Virus record (IMG/VR): IMGVR_UViG_3300050190_000058 | Coordinates: 1-32,001 of that record | DNA length: 32,001 nucleotides | Reading direction: 5' to 3' (one strand) | Source of the DNA: a virus | Shown: in pieces, positions 15,965 to 31,392 of the stretch | Layout of the letters: each line of letters starts with the position of its first letter | Position numbering within the stretch: the first letter of the stretch is position 1 | The notes under the pieces: model-generated | The model's input: the letters and a program-made list of their open reading frames with translations, nothing else | Told to the model about the DNA's origin: nothing | Databases searched by the model: none | Position numbers and translations under genes: made by a program

Positions 15965-16645
15965 ATGCCATTCAAAACTAAAGAACAAAAAGAACAAAAA
16001 GATAAATATAATAGAGACTATTATTTAAAGAACAGAGAAAAAATATTAGGGCCAAAAAAGCAATATTATGAAACTAATATTGAACAGATAAAACAATACC
16101 GCGAAGACAATAAAGAAATGTTAGCTAAAAAGAATAAACAATATCATGAGTCCAATAAAGAATTAATTGCTATCCGTAAAAAACAGTGGTATATGGATAC
16201 TAAGGAAGCAAGACTCACGGTACATCAACATTGGTATGCTCTTAACAGAGAACTTATCATTAAGAAAAGGTTAGCATGGCAAAAGGTAAATAAAGATAAA
16301 GTCAATGTCATAGCTCAAAGACGCAGAACAAGAAAACATTTGTTACCATCAAATTTAACTTTTGAACAATGGGGAGAAACGAAACTACATTTTGATAATA
16401 AATGTGCTTATTGTGGCAAAGAATTGCCTTTGGTTCAAGAGCATTTCATAGCACTAAGCAAAAGCGGAGAATATACAATAAATAATATTATTCCAGCTTG
16501 TATGTCATGTAATAACTCAAAGGGCAATAAAGACTTCTTTGAATGGTATCCTAAATATCGCCATTACTCGAAGAAGCGAGAAAAAATCGTCCTCAAGTTT
16601 CTGAACTATAAAAACAATATTCACCAATTAGCACTTGCTTTTTAG
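15965..16645 (+). CDS. free-standing HNH homing endonuclease
   Basis: 226 aa. The N-terminal 120 residues are a Lys/Gln-rich helical series with repeated YxxxNKE and KKQ units, probably gripping DNA. The HNH core is CAYCGKE...EHFIALSKSGEYTINNIIPACMSCNNSKGN: Cys pairs CxxC and CxxC for zinc, His of EHF and the Asn residues for catalysis. The C-terminus KDFFEWYPKY...LALAF is almost the same as in the HNH protein at 20798. It interrupts no gene; it sits between MuF and scaffold genes. It is AT-rich and has its own promoter and terminator. Confidence 0.85.
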   Translation: MPFKTKEQKEQKDKYNRDYYLKNREKILGPKKQYYETNIEQIKQYREDNKEMLAKKNKQYHESNKELIAIRKKQWYMDTKEARLTVHQHWYALNRELIIKKRLAWQKVNKDKVNVIAQRRRTRKHLLPSNLTFEQWGETKLHFDNKCAYCGKELPLVQEHFIALSKSGEYTINNIIPACMSCNNSKGNKDFFEWYPKYRHYSKKREKIVLKFLNYKNNIHQLALAF

Positions 16646-17619: not shown

Positions 17620-17806
17620 TAAAGTCGCTTAACATAGCGTCCCTATATAGAGATATATAGTAAAAAAATAGGTGAACCTACAAATGTAGGGTGTGCGGAT
17701 TTATCCGTGCTAACGATGAAAAGCTAAGTTACAAGTTGCATTAAAAAAAGAGTGCTATGGTAGAGTGCTTTTTTGTGGTTTCTATGTTTTTAAACTCTGT
17801 ATATGG

Positions 17807-17812
17807 TATAAT
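17807..17812 (+). promoter_or_regulatory. -10 element inside the intron
   Basis: GGTATAATATATATG at 17805-17819 is identical to the sequence upstream of the HNH gene at 15965 and nearly so to that of 20798. No good -35 is seen. It would let the intron gene be made before late transcription. Confidence 0.55.
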
Positions 17813-17925
17813 ATATATGTAGGATAGGCGAAGGGTAGCTCCCCAAACCGACAAAGTGTTTTCCCAAACACTTTCCTATATACTAAAAATTGGGAAAAGA
17901 AGTAACCTTGGGAGGGTTATCTATT

Positions 17926-18867
17926 ATGTCTAAGAAATTAACAATCAAAGAAGTTAAACAGTTTGTTGAAGAAAATTCAAAATGCAAATTGTTATCTACA
18001 GAGTACAACAACAACCACGAAAATTTAAAATTCATATGCGGTTGCGGAAAAGAATTTTTAAGAAGTTTTAATAATTTCAATCAAGCAAAGCAAAGACAAT
18101 GTAACAAATGTAGTAATGTGAAAACCATAAAGTACACAATAGAAGGTGTGAAAAACTTTGTCAGGAATAACAGTAAATGCGAACTGTTAAGCGCAGAATA
18201 CATTGACTGCAAAACAAATTTAAGGTTTAGATGCGCCTGTGGTAATGAGTTTGAAACGCCATTTGATTGCTTTAAATCGGCAAATAAAAGGCAATGCGAT
18301 GATTGCACGAATGATAAAGTTAGAAACGAAAGAAATTACTCGTTCGAAGAGGTTAAGAATTTTGTTGAGGTAGAAAGCAAAAGTAATTGCAAACTATTGA
18401 GCACAAAATATATTAACAATCTCAGAAAAATGATGTTCCAATGTGAATGCGGCAATAAATTTGAAACAATATTCAGTAATTTTAAAAACATAAAGCAAGT
18501 GCGGTGTAAGAAATGTTCAAATGCAGTATCAGTTGCTGAATTTACTACTTCAACTATCTTAAAAGATAATGATATAGATTTTATTCCACAATATAAATTT
18601 ATTGATTGCAAACATAAACGAGGATTACCTTTTGATTTTTATTTGCCTTATTGCAATATAGCGATTGAGATAGATGGGTTACAACATTATAAGCCTGTTT
18701 GTTTTGGTGATATTAATTATGAAAAAGCCTTAGAAAATCTTAGCATACAGCAAAAACATGATGAGATAAAAAATGGTTATTGTAAACAAAATAATATTAA
18801 ACTAATAAGAATACCATATACAGAGTTTAAAAACATAGAAACCATATTAAAGAGCATTCTACCATAA
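17926..18867 (+). CDS. intron-encoded homing endonuclease, EDxHD/Vsr-like
   Basis: 313 aa from ATG 17926 (GGGAGGG upstream; the TTG at 17890 has no site). Three repeats of about 65 residues each end in CxCGxxF...RQCxxC: FICGCGKEF, RCACGNEF and QCECGNKF, zinc-ribbon DNA-binding units. The C-terminus has GLPFDFYLPYCNIAIEIDGLQHY, the pattern of Vsr-like EDxHD nucleases such as the intron enzyme I-Bth0305I. It probably cuts intronless capsid alleles so that repair copies the intron. Strongly AT-rich compared with the capsid exons. Confidence 0.8.
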   Translation: MSKKLTIKEVKQFVEENSKCKLLSTEYNNNHENLKFICGCGKEFLRSFNNFNQAKQRQCNKCSNVKTIKYTIEGVKNFVRNNSKCELLSAEYIDCKTNLRFRCACGNEFETPFDCFKSANKRQCDDCTNDKVRNERNYSFEEVKNFVEVESKSNCKLLSTKYINNLRKMMFQCECGNKFETIFSNFKNIKQVRCKKCSNAVSVAEFTTSTILKDNDIDFIPQYKFIDCKHKRGLPFDFYLPYCNIAIEIDGLQHYKPVCFGDINYEKALENLSIQQKHDEIKNGYCKQNNIKLIRIPYTEFKNIETILKSILP

Positions 18868-19069
18868 TGCTCTTTTTTTAATGCAACTTGTAATATGCCA
18901 ATATCGTGCCAATCCTTAGAGATAAGGAAGGTGTAACGACTAAATTGAGCGTAAAAGCTCTAAGAGGTTCAATGTGAAATTCATTGTTCCGTAGCGCCTA
19001 TCCCCTAGTAATAGGGTGAAGAGATAGTCTACTCCCCTAATAAATATCGGGAAACCGAGGGTATAAAGG

Positions 19070-20779: not shown

Positions 20780-20797
20780 ATATATGAGGTGAAAAGA

Positions 20798-21571
20798 GTG
20801 AAAGCTAAGGTATGCAGTAAGTGCGGTGAAGAATTACCCTTAACGAGTGAATATTATAGAAAAGGCTTGGAAAGCAAAGATGGGTTTTATAATACTTGTA
20901 GGAGCTGTATTAATGAACAAAAAAGACGGCACTACTTGGATGTTAGAGATCGTTGCTTAGATTATAATAAACAATACAGTAAAGCGAATAAAGAAATTAT
21001 AGCAAAACAAAGAAAGCAACATTATGACGAAAACAGAGAAGTTCTTATTGAAAAGTCTAAACAATATCAAGACGATAACAAGGAAGCCACGGTTAAGCGT
21101 CTAAAACAATGGAAGGAAAAAAATAAGGAGCATTGTGCTGAATACGGGAAACAGTATAGAGAAGGGCTGAATAAGGAGACCTATAACAAAAGCCAAAGGC
21201 AATATCAAAAAGAACATCCGGAAAAGTTTAGAGGTTACTACCATAAGCGCAATGCTTTGAAACTTGAATTATTGTCTACATTAACACCCGAGCAATGGGG
21301 AGTAATTAAGCAATGTTTTAACAGTTGTTGCGCTTATTGCGGGAAGGAAGCACATCTTGAACAGGAACATTTTATTGCTTTAAGCAAAGGTGGGGAATAT
21401 ACTCACAATAACATTTTGCCCGCTTGTAAAAATTGTAATAGCAGTAAAAATAATAAAGATTTCTTTGAATGGTACCCGAAATATAAATATTACTCAAAGA
21501 AAAGAGAAAAGCAAATACTTGAATTTTTAAACTACAAAAACGGAATACACCAATTAGCACTTGCTTTTTAG
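20798..21571 (+). CDS. free-standing HNH homing endonuclease with N-terminal zinc finger
   Basis: 257 aa from GTG 20798, six bases after GAGGTG; GTG 20789 lies in that site. It adds an N-terminal CSKCGEEL...CRSC zinc finger to the plan of the HNH protein at 15965. Then come KQYxxxNKE-type repeats and the HNH core CAYCGKEAHLEQEHFIALSKGG...NNILPACKNCNSSKNN. The C-terminus KDFFEWYPKYKYYSKKREK...LALAF is nearly the same as in the other copy. It sits between head closure and gp10-like genes, AT-rich, with its own promoter and terminator. Confidence 0.85.
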   Translation: MKAKVCSKCGEELPLTSEYYRKGLESKDGFYNTCRSCINEQKRRHYLDVRDRCLDYNKQYSKANKEIIAKQRKQHYDENREVLIEKSKQYQDDNKEATVKRLKQWKEKNKEHCAEYGKQYREGLNKETYNKSQRQYQKEHPEKFRGYYHKRNALKLELLSTLTPEQWGVIKQCFNSCCAYCGKEAHLEQEHFIALSKGGEYTHNNILPACKNCNSSKNNKDFFEWYPKYKYYSKKREKQILEFLNYKNGIHQLALAF

Positions 21572-21963: not shown

Positions 21964-22346
21964 TGCTTAATCTTTACACATTGATCAATTCCCTGATTGA
22001 ACCAATCTGCCCGTGTTTCGTTGATCACTATCCCGAAGACGAGGCAAAGGTATTTCCCTACGCAGAGATTCAATTTTCGAACACCTTGCCAAACAATACA
22101 TTCTCTGACAATAACCTGCTTTCAATAACCATCTGGGATGACAAGGGCACGGACATAACCGAGATCGAGGGCATTGCCGATGCAATTCACAAGGTGCTAA
22201 ATCGTCTGCAATATAACAATGCGGCTATGTATGTATCGATCAACCGGAACACGCCGTACAGACTTGTACTGCCTGATCCGATCATCCATATTCAGCGCAG
22301 GGAATTGAGGTACATTTCTACTGTGTACTATAAACAAACCGGCTAA
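21963..22346 (+). CDS. tail completion / tail terminator protein
   Basis: 127 aa. Position and pattern (INSLIEPICPCFVDHYPED, FPYAEIQFS, ITIWDDKGTDITEIEGIADAIHKVLNR) fit the gp17/DUF3168-like tail terminators that cap the tail tube before head joining. A terminator with a 49-bp repeat follows. Confidence 0.7.
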   Translation: MLNLYTLINSLIEPICPCFVDHYPEDEAKVFPYAEIQFSNTLPNNTFSDNNLLSITIWDDKGTDITEIEGIADAIHKVLNRLQYNNAAMYVSINRNTPYRLVLPDPIIHIQRRELRYISTVYYKQTG

Positions 22347-22347
22347 C

Positions 22348-22396
22348 TAAATATTCATTGGTAATTAGCACCCCGTGTGGGTGCTTTTTTTATTAC
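22348..22396 (+). repeat. 49-bp direct repeat with terminator, copy 1
   Basis: Contains AGCACCC (22367-22373) and GGGTGCT (22379-22385) with loop CGTGT, then a T-run. The same 49 bp recur at 23831-23879 with one mismatch (T/C). Confidence 0.85.
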
Positions 22397-22426
22397 GACA
22401 AAGTATGAAAAATAGGAGGACTTTAA

Positions 22427-23410: not shown

Positions 23411-23833
23411 ATGAAGTATTGTAAAAACTGCGGACAGAATGTAAGCCCCACTAAGAATTTTAGTTTTGGCTGGTTTATAGTCAATTGCTTATGGTTAGTC
23501 GGTGGAATTGTATATATTTTTTATTTCCTGTTTATGAAGAAAAAGGTTTGCCCTATCTGCGGTGCTGCAAACTTTGAACAGAAGCACAGCGCAGAAGAAA
23601 TACAAACTAATAAAGCAGGCTTTCCACAAATAGTCCCACTGTCCAAAGTAGATAGAATGAACGAAAATTCAATCATAGCCTTAGAAAAGGCCCAGGATAG
23701 GGCTGTAATAGCCAAGGCTAAGTATGCAAGAGTAAAGGAAAAAAGGATTGAAGATAATAGAATCTGGCGAATAAAAAGTGCAGAAAAGAAAGCCGCAAAA
23801 GCAGCCAAAAAAGCAGCCAAGCTGGCAAGTTAA
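23411..23833 (+). CDS. zinc-ribbon membrane protein, moron-like cargo
   Basis: 140 aa; ATG 23411 after AAAGGGAGGGG. Starts YCKNCGQNVSP, one transmembrane helix (WFIVNCLWLVGGIVYIFYFLF), then a second CPICGAANF ribbon, so two Cys pairs flank the membrane segment. The C-terminus is a Lys/Ala-rich helix (EKKAAKAAKKAAK). It does not fit tail assembly, has its own promoter and terminator, and sits between tube and chaperone genes. Possibly a lysogeny or host-interaction factor; function unknown. Confidence 0.65.
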   Translation: MKYCKNCGQNVSPTKNFSFGWFIVNCLWLVGGIVYIFYFLFMKKKVCPICGAANFEQKHSAEEIQTNKAGFPQIVPLSKVDRMNENSIIALEKAQDRAVIAKAKYARVKEKRIEDNRIWRIKSAEKKAAKAAKKAAKLAS

Positions 23834-23879
23834 ATATTCATCGGTAATTAGCACCCCGTGTGGGTGCTTTTTTTATTAC
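23831..23879 (+). repeat. 49-bp direct repeat with terminator, copy 2
   Basis: 48 of 49 bases match 22348-22396. Here the first three bases are the stop codon of the moron gene. The hairpin and T-run form its terminator. Confidence 0.85.
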
Positions 23880-23897
23880 AAAGAAGGAGATGTTTAA

Positions 23898-26783: not shown

Positions 26784-27653
26784 ATGCTTCAAAAACTAAC
26801 CTACACAAATAGTTTGGGAGTGGAACTATCTATCAACCGTTCTGCTCCTTTTTTAATTCAATCCTTCGACACAACTGAAAACGTGAATATATACAATGCC
26901 AAAGGAGTCCTGCAAGATGGGTCAACCTATCTAGGCAACTCCCTGGATATTAGGGATGTGTCAATCGGATTAATCCTGCTTTCGAATACTAAAGAGCAAT
27001 TAATAACCCTCAGAAAACAGGTGACGCAAATATTTAACCCCAAACTTGGCGAGGGGTATCTCACTTATACGGATGAGGCCAAATCAATAAAGATTAAATG
27101 TATCCCGGCTAAAATACCATATTTTGAAAACAATGAGGATGCACCCTGGCAATCAGCCCTGGTTAACCTGACATGCAATAATCCATTTTGGCAAGACCTA
27201 ACCCAGATCAAGGCCGAGATTGCCCTTTGGATCGGGGAGTTTGAATTTCCTTTAGAACTCGTTGCCGGTGGTATCGAAATGGGATACAGACAACCGAGCC
27301 TGATCGTAAATACATTTAATCCCGGAGATGTGCCCTGTGGTCTGACAGCGCAGTTTACAGCACTAGCCACACTAACTAACCCTAGCATTCTGAATGTAAA
27401 TACAGGGGAGTATATCAAAGCCCTGAAAACAATGGTGGCCGGGGAGATTTTAAATATCAGCACAGGGTTTGGCAACAAAAAGGTAACAAGCACTTTAAAC
27501 GGTGTCGTAACAAATGCCTTTAATTGCATTGACCTTGGTAGTACATTCCTACAACTAGCCTCAGGTGACAACCTATTTCGATATGATGCGCTTTCGGGGA
27601 TTTCCAACCTGATCGTAGCAATCTACTACACGCCCCAGTATCTAAATGTTTAG
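26784..27653 (+). CDS. distal tail protein Dit (SPP1 gp19.1-like)
   Basis: 289 aa; ATG 26784 after GGGAGGAG. N-terminus LTYTNSLGVELSINRSAPFLIQSF and the DIRDVSIGLIL...NPKLGEGYLTY segment fit the Dit/phage-tail family; the C-terminal galectin-like domain is beta-rich. Dit rings join tail tube and baseplate. Confidence 0.8.
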   Translation: MLQKLTYTNSLGVELSINRSAPFLIQSFDTTENVNIYNAKGVLQDGSTYLGNSLDIRDVSIGLILLSNTKEQLITLRKQVTQIFNPKLGEGYLTYTDEAKSIKIKCIPAKIPYFENNEDAPWQSALVNLTCNNPFWQDLTQIKAEIALWIGEFEFPLELVAGGIEMGYRQPSLIVNTFNPGDVPCGLTAQFTALATLTNPSILNVNTGEYIKALKTMVAGEILNISTGFGNKKVTSTLNGVVTNAFNCIDLGSTFLQLASGDNLFRYDALSGISNLIVAIYYTPQYLNV

Positions 27654-27674
27654 TCGGCCAGGAGGTAAACAGTC

Positions 27675-28775
27675 ATGCAGATCTATGTGTTCGATAGGAA
27701 TATAAATTTTCAGGGCATAATTGACACCTACAGTTCATTAAGATGGCGGCGGCGCTTTAATCAGTATTCAGAGTTTGAACTGCACTGCCCGCTAACCGCT
27801 GACAACCTCAGCCTACTCACTAGAGATAGCATAATCTGCAAAAGCGATAGCACGCAAGAGGCCGGATACATTGAATATAGAGAATTGCAACAAGATGAAA
27901 AAGGAGAAGAATTTCTAATAATTAAAGGTAGGTTTTTGAAGTCCTACTTTGCCAGGCGAATAATCTGGGCACAGGAACTATTAAACTGCACCTATGAAGT
28001 CGCTATGCGAAACCTGGTCAATGATCAATGTATTACTCCAACGTTAACAGACCGAATTATTCCCAATCTACAACTAGAAACCTTAAAAAGTTATGCCGGG
28101 GTTGTAAATTATCAGGTAACCTATAATAACCTGTTTGATGAACTGATCAACCTGTGCAACCTGGGCGGTCTGGGGTTTAGACTCCTGCTAGATACAATCA
28201 ATAAAAAGCTTAATTTCGACATCTTCCAGGGGTTAGACCGTACATCAGGGCAATCGGTTAATGCTCGCTGTATCTTCTCTACAGACTTCGACAATATCCT
28301 GTCTCAAAATTACGTTGACAGTATGAACAACCTGAGCAATGTCGCCCTGGTCGGTGGCACTGGTGATGGGTCTGCTAGGAAGTTAGTCACTATAGGAGCA
28401 TCCACAGGCTTAGACAGGGCTGAATTATGGGTAGACGCTAAAGATATTTCTAATGTTAATTCAACAGATTCTAGTGTAATTGCTGATGCAACATATTTGC
28501 CTATGCTAACAGCTAGAGGCAATGCGGATCTCGCTCTCACAGCCGATATCAAAACATTCGACAGCAAGATCAATGTCAATTCTAATCTCGTTTATAAGAC
28601 CGACTTTGACCTGGGGGATAAAGTTACCTGCACAAATCGTAAATGGGGTGTAACGATAGACGCGGTGATAAGCGAGATCGAGGAAGTGTGGGAAGAGAAG
28701 GGCTTTAGTGTGAGCGTTGTTTTTGGTAATACTATCCCCACCTTGCTCGATCTGATTAGGCAGAAAATAACATAA
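27675..28775 (+). CDS. tail protein, ReqiPepy6 Gp37-like
   Basis: 366 aa; ATG 27675 after CCAGGAGG. The N-terminus IYVFDRNINFQGIIDTYSSL with RWRRRFNQYSEFELHCP, and VNYQVTYNNLFDELINLCN, match the siphovirus ReqiPepy6 Gp37-like family, which forms the hub after Dit (gp27-like fold). Confidence 0.8.
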   Translation: MQIYVFDRNINFQGIIDTYSSLRWRRRFNQYSEFELHCPLTADNLSLLTRDSIICKSDSTQEAGYIEYRELQQDEKGEEFLIIKGRFLKSYFARRIIWAQELLNCTYEVAMRNLVNDQCITPTLTDRIIPNLQLETLKSYAGVVNYQVTYNNLFDELINLCNLGGLGFRLLLDTINKKLNFDIFQGLDRTSGQSVNARCIFSTDFDNILSQNYVDSMNNLSNVALVGGTGDGSARKLVTIGASTGLDRAELWVDAKDISNVNSTDSSVIADATYLPMLTARGNADLALTADIKTFDSKINVNSNLVYKTDFDLGDKVTCTNRKWGVTIDAVISEIEEVWEEKGFSVSVVFGNTIPTLLDLIRQKIT

Positions 28776-29764: not shown

Positions 29765-29776
29765 GGCGGTGATTGA

Positions 29777-30781
29777 ATGTCTCAGGTAATAAGCAATTTA
29801 GCGGTAGGTGCAAAGATTAAATATGGCAATTATCAAGTTGAAAGCAGTACCACTCTCCCTATTATCTGGCAAGTGATAGACAAAAACCACACAGGATACC
29901 CGGCCAACTCCGTTACGTTACTCACGGACAAAATTATTGATTTACGAGGATTCGATGCAAAAGAGCCTACTAATGCTAATGCAGATCGAGTTAGCTACGG
30001 TAATAACAGATATCGCTCCTCAAACTTGCGTCAATGGTTAAATAGCGGCGGTGCGGCTAATGCTTGGTGGGTTGCTAACAACCCCGCTGACGGCACAACT
30101 AATACTAATAACAAAGATGCTACTCCAGAGGATGCAGGGTTCAGTGAAACCACAGGGTACAACGATATCAAAGGGTTTATGAACAATTTCACCGCACTGG
30201 AACTAGCTAAGATTCTAGATACAACTTTGACGACAGCCAAGAACACCATTACAGACGGCGGTGGTTCCGAGACGGTTACTGACAAAGTATTCCTCTTGTC
30301 CAACACAGAGGTTGGGTTTGCTAAAGAGAACAGCATTGTTGAAGGTAGTCTATTTTCAATCTTTGCTGCCAACGCCAATAGGATCGCCTATATGACGGCT
30401 CAGGGATTCGCAAATGTCATGAGTTCAAACAAACCGGCTACAGTTGGTGCAGCGTGGTCTTGGTGGTTGAGAACCCCGTACGCCACCAATTCGGACGACG
30501 CCCGCATGGTCAGTTCCTCCGGCATCCTGGACTACTACCTTGCGTACGCTGGCAGCAGCGGCGTTCGCCCCGCTTTGAATCTGGCAAATAATATCTTGGT
30601 ATCTGACTCAACAGATTCTGACGGATGTTATACGGCGGTCTGGTGGACTGCGCCAAATATTAAAACCAACATCAACGGAGCATTAAAAACTTATGTTGAT
30701 GGCTGGGTTAATATTGGTGGAACGGCAAGGCACATTGACAGTATGTGGACTAACATCAATGGTGTGCTGAAAAAGTTATAG
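29777..30781 (+). CDS. DUF6273 C-type-lectin-like protein, candidate DGR target
   Basis: 334 aa; ATG 29777 after GGGCGGTGATTGA. The DUF6273-like domain shows LRQWLNSGG, FLLSNTEVGF and a WWLRTPYATN...GVRPALNL block (residues 229-269). This block is the usual place for diversified residues in DGR target proteins of this fold. The C-terminal 65 residues repeat WxNINGxLK-type units (TNINGALKTYVDGWVNI). As an exposed tail-tip protein it could be the receptor binder. Confidence 0.7.
   Translation: MSQVISNLAVGAKIKYGNYQVESSTTLPIIWQVIDKNHTGYPANSVTLLTDKIIDLRGFDAKEPTNANADRVSYGNNRYRSSNLRQWLNSGGAANAWWVANNPADGTTNTNNKDATPEDAGFSETTGYNDIKGFMNNFTALELAKILDTTLTTAKNTITDGGGSETVTDKVFLLSNTEVGFAKENSIVEGSLFSIFAANANRIAYMTAQGFANVMSSNKPATVGAAWSWWLRTPYATNSDDARMVSSSGILDYYLAYAGSSGVRPALNLANNILVSDSTDSDGCYTAVWWTAPNIKTNINGALKTYVDGWVNIGGTARHIDSMWTNINGVLKKL
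30461..30583 (+). other. candidate variable region of a diversity-generating retroelement
   Basis: From TGG TGG to GTT CGC CCC GCT TTG. It is clearly richer in G and C than the flanks, and many codons at exposed positions have the NNC form (TAC, GCC, GAC, GTC, TCC, ATC) expected when AAC in a template is mutated at A. No template copy or reverse transcriptase lies in the window. Confidence 0.5.
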
Positions 30782-30792
30782 GAGGTGAAATC

Positions 30793-31392
30793 ATGCAGAT
30801 TATAAAATACGAGATAGATAAAAGCAGGCTCACTGTTGGTTTTAAAGAGGATGTTTTTGTGGTGTATGCACAGATACCCTACGATAATACAAAAACAAAA
30901 GAATATCTTTTACAAAAAGCTTATGAACAGGTCAAAAGTGCCATTGAATATGAAAATACTCTGACCGAACATTCTTTTACCACGGATGAAACAGGAGAAG
31001 AATTCACTCCAGAAATGCCTAAAGCATCTAAGGTTATTATCGACAATGTAATTAATTATTTTAGTTGCTTGCAGACAGGAGATTTAACACAACAATTCAC
31101 AGCAAAAGTTTACGACCAATACGGCGACGTGATAAGTAAATCCATTACATTCTCCTTCAGTAGCACTCCTGCAAATGTTACCTTAAACAATGGACTTCTC
31201 ACAGTAGGGCAAGCAGAGGGTGACTATGATTTAACATTGACCGCAAGTTGTGAAGGTGTCACGGATGCTCTGCTAATTTATGTTAGAAAATATGTTGAAC
31301 CAACAATACCACCTAAAACGGAACCAGAGAAATTGCAAGAACAGATCGATATAAATGCTGGGGCAATAGACTTTATTGTTATGAACTTTTAG
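30793..31392 (+). CDS. tail protein with an Ig-like domain
   Basis: 199 aa; ATG 30793 after ATAGGAGGTG. Residues 95-168 fit a bacterial Ig-like (Big-type) fold: QQFTAKVYDQYGDVISKSIT, SSTPANVTLNNGLLTVGQAEG, YDLTLTASCEGV. The C-terminus IPPKTEPEKLQEQIDINAGA resembles the linker of short phage proteins before the lysis genes. Probably virion surface. Confidence 0.65.
   Translation: MQIIKYEIDKSRLTVGFKEDVFVVYAQIPYDNTKTKEYLLQKAYEQVKSAIEYENTLTEHSFTTDETGEEFTPEMPKASKVIIDNVINYFSCLQTGDLTQQFTAKVYDQYGDVISKSITFSFSSTPANVTLNNGLLTVGQAEGDYDLTLTASCEGVTDALLIYVRKYVEPTIPPKTEPEKLQEQIDINAGAIDFIVMNF

Follow-up and report, generated by a model that had tools for sequence, protein, structure and literature searches.

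Does the WWLRTP...GVRPALNL block of a DUF6273 tail-tip protein represent the variable repeat (VR) of a diversity-generating retroelement (DGR), and is this repeat still being rewritten? The question arose from an initial annotation of IMG/VR record IMGVR_UViG_3300050190_000058, in which the block was listed as a candidate DGR variable region. We analyzed the window (i.e. the whole stretch of 32,001 nucleotides taken from this record) together with homologous loci and related phage records.

Table 1. Coordinates of features at the target locus (TR, template repeat; RT, reverse transcriptase)
Feature	Position	Strand	Basis
Dit (PF05709/PF22768) and Gp37-like tail protein (PF14594), syntenic markers	26784..28775	+	
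Virion structural (tail/baseplate-region) protein, phrog_1220-type, syntenic marker; 45% to L019, 72% to L147	28793..29764	+	
12-bp junction, expected place of Avd-TR-RT (1.93 kb in L019)	29765..29776	+	L019 synteny
DGR-type target gene, DUF6273 (C-lectin-like) tail-tip/adhesin protein, 334 aa	29777..30781	+	PF19789, phrog_10993, AF2/Foldseek
VR, conserved framework codons and diversified NNC/NNT codons, WWLRTP...GVRPALNL	30461..30586	+	homologous VRs, GC
Diversified part of VR, codons Y235-S261	30479..30559	+	replacement changes vs L006, L018; template-adenine columns
Putative IMH at VR 3′ end, GGCGTTCGCCCCGCTTTGAATCTG	30560..30583	+	exact 20-mer common with DUF6273 VRs
Target C-terminal module (residues 263-334) and next gene (weak Big_1 match)	30563..31392	+	

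The target protein and its variable repeat

The target ORF was assigned to DUF6273 by its Pfam profile match (PF19789; residues 44-269, E = 2e-39, 135.6 bits against a gathering score of 23.5), and it also matched phrog_10993 (Hoc-like; E = 4e-77). For its AlphaFold2 (AF2) model (mean pLDDT 83), the top Foldseek match was 9qa6, a DUF6273-bearing protein. The VR is located at the C-terminal end of the DUF6273 domain, where it covers strands 229-234, 241-245, 251-255, and 266-270 of the model; this predicted layout is consistent with the VR hairpin of tentaclins (PMC10743442). The protein presumably acts in receptor binding. DUF6273 was the only domain detected by the Pfam search of the 334 residues, with no C-terminal Ig-like domains on the chain. 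The C-terminal ~70 residues and the next gene are closer to a locus of Clostridium sp. CF012, which is without DUF6273, than to tentaclin Ig arms. A close target was absent from 391 genomes of the class of this Clostridium, scanned at E <= 1e-60 with no positive control.

The block itself and the local GC rise ascribed to it were both confirmed. GC content over 123 bp was 0.618 compared with 0.429 window-wide, a value reached or exceeded by just 0.17% of all 123-bp positions in the window; the maximum (0.642) begins at 30452. The proposed NNC-type codons were recovered as well, with C- or T-ending codons at nearly all template-adenine positions. A further argument of the annotation, the invariant WWLR and GVRPAL motifs, was rejected as DGR evidence: both are kept across DUF6273 proteins at large, and alone they are therefore no proof of a DGR.

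More specific evidence came from templates and from the 3′ end of the repeat. The VR has the same frame and length as 34 unique templates from homologous loci. At its 3′ end lies a GC-rich putative IMH, of which an exact 20-mer occurred in four IMG/VR contigs, namely the overlapping contig of the phage itself and three contigs with DUF6273 VRs. Of these three VRs, that of L003 belongs to a complete, proven DGR, and the template there departs from the VR at the putative IMH as an IMH* would.

DGRs in homologous loci

A profile-guided scan yielded 80 loci, and addition of published phages resulted in 84 scored loci. In 72 of them a DGR reverse transcriptase (RT) adjoins the target, bearing in mind that the scan detects only nearby RTs. 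The window is nested among RT-bearing loci in a 17-row clade (SH-aLRT 98). A template repeat was found in 44 loci, mostly with 0-3 non-adenine mismatches to the VR versus 9-20 adenine mismatches. The L003 locus is ordered Avd, template, RT, and target; its template differs from the VR by 21 adenine mismatches and no others. L014 and L016 are 99% identical; their VRs differ at 18 bases, every one of them a template adenine, compared with two differing sites in the 717 bp upstream. On this pattern, the DGR type of these DUF6273 loci was recently active.

Two records contained additional VR-like blocks. In L020, two DUF6273 blocks 1 kb apart (L020:10706 and L020:11669) are low in GC and without DGR signature, and no RT was found in the 48-kb record. 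In L032, a further block (L032:18175) lies 7.5 kb downstream from the main target; its best match was at the template position, and it may be another target of that DGR.

Divergence of the window VR

The nearest homologues of the window are L006 (74%) and L018 (73%). Relative to L006, changes at codon positions 1 and 2 affected 21 of 56 sites in the VR versus 31 of 278 before it (p = 6e-6), and replacement codons made up 16 of 28 versus 28 of 139 (p = 1e-4). Position 1-2 changes were also concentrated in the VR relative to L018 (p = 2e-4). Third-position changes relative to L006 were equally common in the VR (11 of 28) and in the rest of the gene (59 of 139), so the two VRs do not have a common template.

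Template-adenine columns were defined by the presence of A in 34 foreign templates. Differences from the window were enriched in these columns for L018 (17/30 vs 11/57 in other columns; p = 5e-4), L031 (20/30 vs 20/57; p = 0.005), and L006 (15/30 vs 17/57; p = 0.05). This enrichment is less sharp than the VR concentration of position 1-2 changes for L006 and L018, and the nearest homologues with which it was obtained reach no more than 65-74% identity and show differences at other positions as well. Agreement between the window and the best-fitting foreign template (L060) was 45 of 58 at non-adenine sites and 14 of 29 at adenine sites (p = 0.006). Judged by these sequence comparisons, a DGR-type VR in the window is well supported.

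Search for a cassette in the phage genome

The window record is a fragment. Contig L001, identical to the window over a 12,225-bp overlap, adds 2.1 kb downstream, giving 34.1 kb in total versus 38-54 kb reached by related phage records; no further contig extending L001 was found via its end sequence. The VR of L001 is identical to that of the window, but as L001 possibly stems from the same sample, this identity was not counted as a sign of a frozen state.

Direct repeats and adenine-tolerant scans revealed no second VR copy or template in the window. A DGR-type RT was detected neither in the window nor in the L001 record (PF00078 profile and tblastn; incomplete genome), and a profile built from the Avds of relatives found none in the window or the L001 extension. 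No relic of a cassette was seen in the window either. In the IMG/VR database, strict adenine-degenerate and looser framework patterns returned only the VR of the phage itself, hence no template matching its framework. The check proposed initially, a search for a near-identical copy differing at adenines next to an RT, accordingly ended with RT, Avd, and template all absent from 34.1 kb of an incomplete genome. The remark that no template lies in the 1.4 kb downstream proved correct and extends to the 2.1 kb added by L001, where RT is absent too. The designation as DGR variable region thus held for the origin of the block (protein family, VR length, fitting foreign templates, excess replacement in the VR, and the 20-mer) but not for its status as a current target, given that no cassette adjoins it and neither RT nor template occurs in the 34.1 kb.

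Synteny and decay series

The target gene is preceded by the Dit, Gp37-like, and phrog_1220-type genes and followed by a small gene whose product weakly matches Ig. In L019, three tail genes (39, 36, and 45% identical to those of the window) are followed by Avd-TR-RT within 1,932 bp and then by the target. In the window, only 12 bp separate the last tail gene from the target, with no Avd-TR-RT between them. Intermediate arrangements were found in two other loci. L016 has kept Avd and template, and its RT is cut to 65 codons by a ~0.8 kb deletion whose ends carry a short repeat; in L005, which has related Dit and tail genes, all that is left of the cassette is an Avd stub of ~36-40 codons (E ~ 1e-13), placed between the tail gene and the target. 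Both are known from metagenome contigs, in which assembly errors are possible in principle. No RT was found in the full records of L001, L005, L006, and L018.

Among 49 phage relatives found by terminase or tail gene, neither an RT nor a DUF6273 gene was present outside L019. In L147, the closest relative by its tail, a fibre extension rich in repeats takes the place of the target. Considering this differing content at the target site and the CF012-like C-terminus of the window protein, the receptor-binding module appears to have been exchanged within this phage group, and the DUF6273 head was probably acquired from DGR phages.

Origin and present state of the variable repeat

A working DGR in this phage is not supported. 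We consider it probable that the VR is an orphaned, frozen leftover of past diversification, located in a DGR-derived target whose cassette was lost or never captured. The DUF6273 C-lectin-like receptor-binding protein would then descend from a DGR target, which in most relatives directly follows Avd, template repeat, and RT. There, the template is copied by the RT with randomization of adenines, and insertion of this copy into the VR alters the binding surface. Since Avd-TR-RT is missing between the upstream tail gene and the target, the VR of the window is most likely fixed, the result of earlier diversification, and borne on a different fibre C-terminus as a preformed binding module. Either capture without the cassette or its loss following capture could have led to this state. 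As a counterpoint, the VR does not look decayed: its GC content is still high and the putative IMH is intact, as one would equally expect if diversification were recent or ongoing.

Given that the record is a fragment, a remote DGR could sit in the missing part, probably several kb, with RT and template continuing to diversify the VR. This main rival is unlikely, in our estimate, though there is precedent for remote targets (PMC8144416), neither the putative IMH nor the framework is disrupted, and the GC excess of the VR (0.147) resembles that of VRs with a template (mean 0.097). Every RT found adjoined its target, albeit in a scan limited to nearby RTs; no template contig in IMG/VR fits the window framework; and 48 of the 49 related phage records are without RT (as they are without target), the exception, L019, having the adjacent arrangement.

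It is much less probable that a DGR acts on the target in trans, whether encoded by the host, by a prophage residing in the same cell, or by a phage infecting it at the same time. The exact 20-mer common with DGR phage L003 makes retrohoming from a foreign template conceivable, yet no IMG/VR template matches the framework of the window, and over 87 bp even the best-fitting foreign template (L060) departs from the VR at 13 non-adenine positions. Equally improbable is an ordinary DUF6273 domain with no DGR in its past, whose GC rise and variability would be due to ordinary diversifying selection on a receptor-binding hairpin: no RT adjoins the target and much of the WWLR and G-R-P frame is common to DUF6273 proteins without nearby DGR (AR9, BpSp, L020, L038, and L058), but L038 and L058 lack a GC excess, the loops of AR9 and BpSp are unlike the window VR, and the window follows foreign template adenines in its changes, is identical to a DGR phage over 20 bp of the putative IMH, and is nested within RT-bearing clades.

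Returning to the orphaned target, we tentatively propose a more general scheme of repeated escape from the mutator, possible although not yet the likelier case. Phages without a DGR may capture diversified C-lectin heads, or may delete Avd-TR-RT after a good binder has arisen, so that the frozen VR would spread to other fibres as a transferable unit of specificity. DGRs have mostly been studied while intact, and RT-anchored surveys miss targets like that of the window. The series from L019 (intact) via L016 (RT deletion) and L005 (Avd stub) to the window (none) would make it possible to test at what point, and for what reason, a phage gives up diversification of its receptor binder.

Other features of the window

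The major capsid gene is interrupted by ~1.45 kb (17624-19069) absent in L102/L103, whose capsid halves are 98% identical. The insert contains long inverted repeats (17729-17809 and 18811-18893) and an ORF (17890-18867) weakly matching PvuRts1I-like nucleases, and it resembles an intron that encodes a homing endonuclease; an Rfam search of the insert gave no match at E <= 0.1. Two related HNH endonuclease genes (15965-16645 and 20789-21571; 68% DNA identity over 300 bp) lie in the structural region. Near-duplicate terminator-like sequences (22335-22403 and 23818-23886; 87% over 69 bp) follow two tail-region genes.

Comparison with known systems

DUF6273 DGR targets and RT-less VR fragments have already been published (PMC10743442, PMC11792537, PMC4372165); new here are the cassette-less state and the decay series. 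Among solved structures, the only clear relative in both sequence and fold is the N-terminal region of the Thomasclavelia ramosa IgA peptidase (9qa6), which forms an accessory domain of an enzyme without phage or DGR link. Tentaclins are DGR targets of phages nd4 and nd12 composed of DUF6273 C-lec and Ig domains, and a DGR cassette was reported in each tentaclin phage analyzed (PMC10743442). The N-terminal DUF6273 domain of the window is 44-47% identical to target 1 of nd4/nd12, and both systems have the VR hairpin at the C-terminal end of this domain as well as a tail/lysis neighbourhood. In tentaclins, the same chain continues with between one and four Ig-like domains at its C-terminus. The window protein has no Ig domains and ends in a different module of 60-70 aa; Avd, template, and RT are also missing. 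The Faecalibacterium prophages Roos, Pioen, and Lelie likewise have the VR at the DUF6273 C-terminus, but with RT and template repeats present, and the DGRs of two phages of that study were active as judged by reads (PMC11792537). RT-less DGR fragments of Nanoarchaeota, taken by their authors as fossils or remote targets, share with the window an adenine-type VR history and no RT nearby (PMC4372165). Those are archaeal orphan genes, whereas the window encodes a phage C-lectin adhesin for which a syntenic comparison and intermediates are available.
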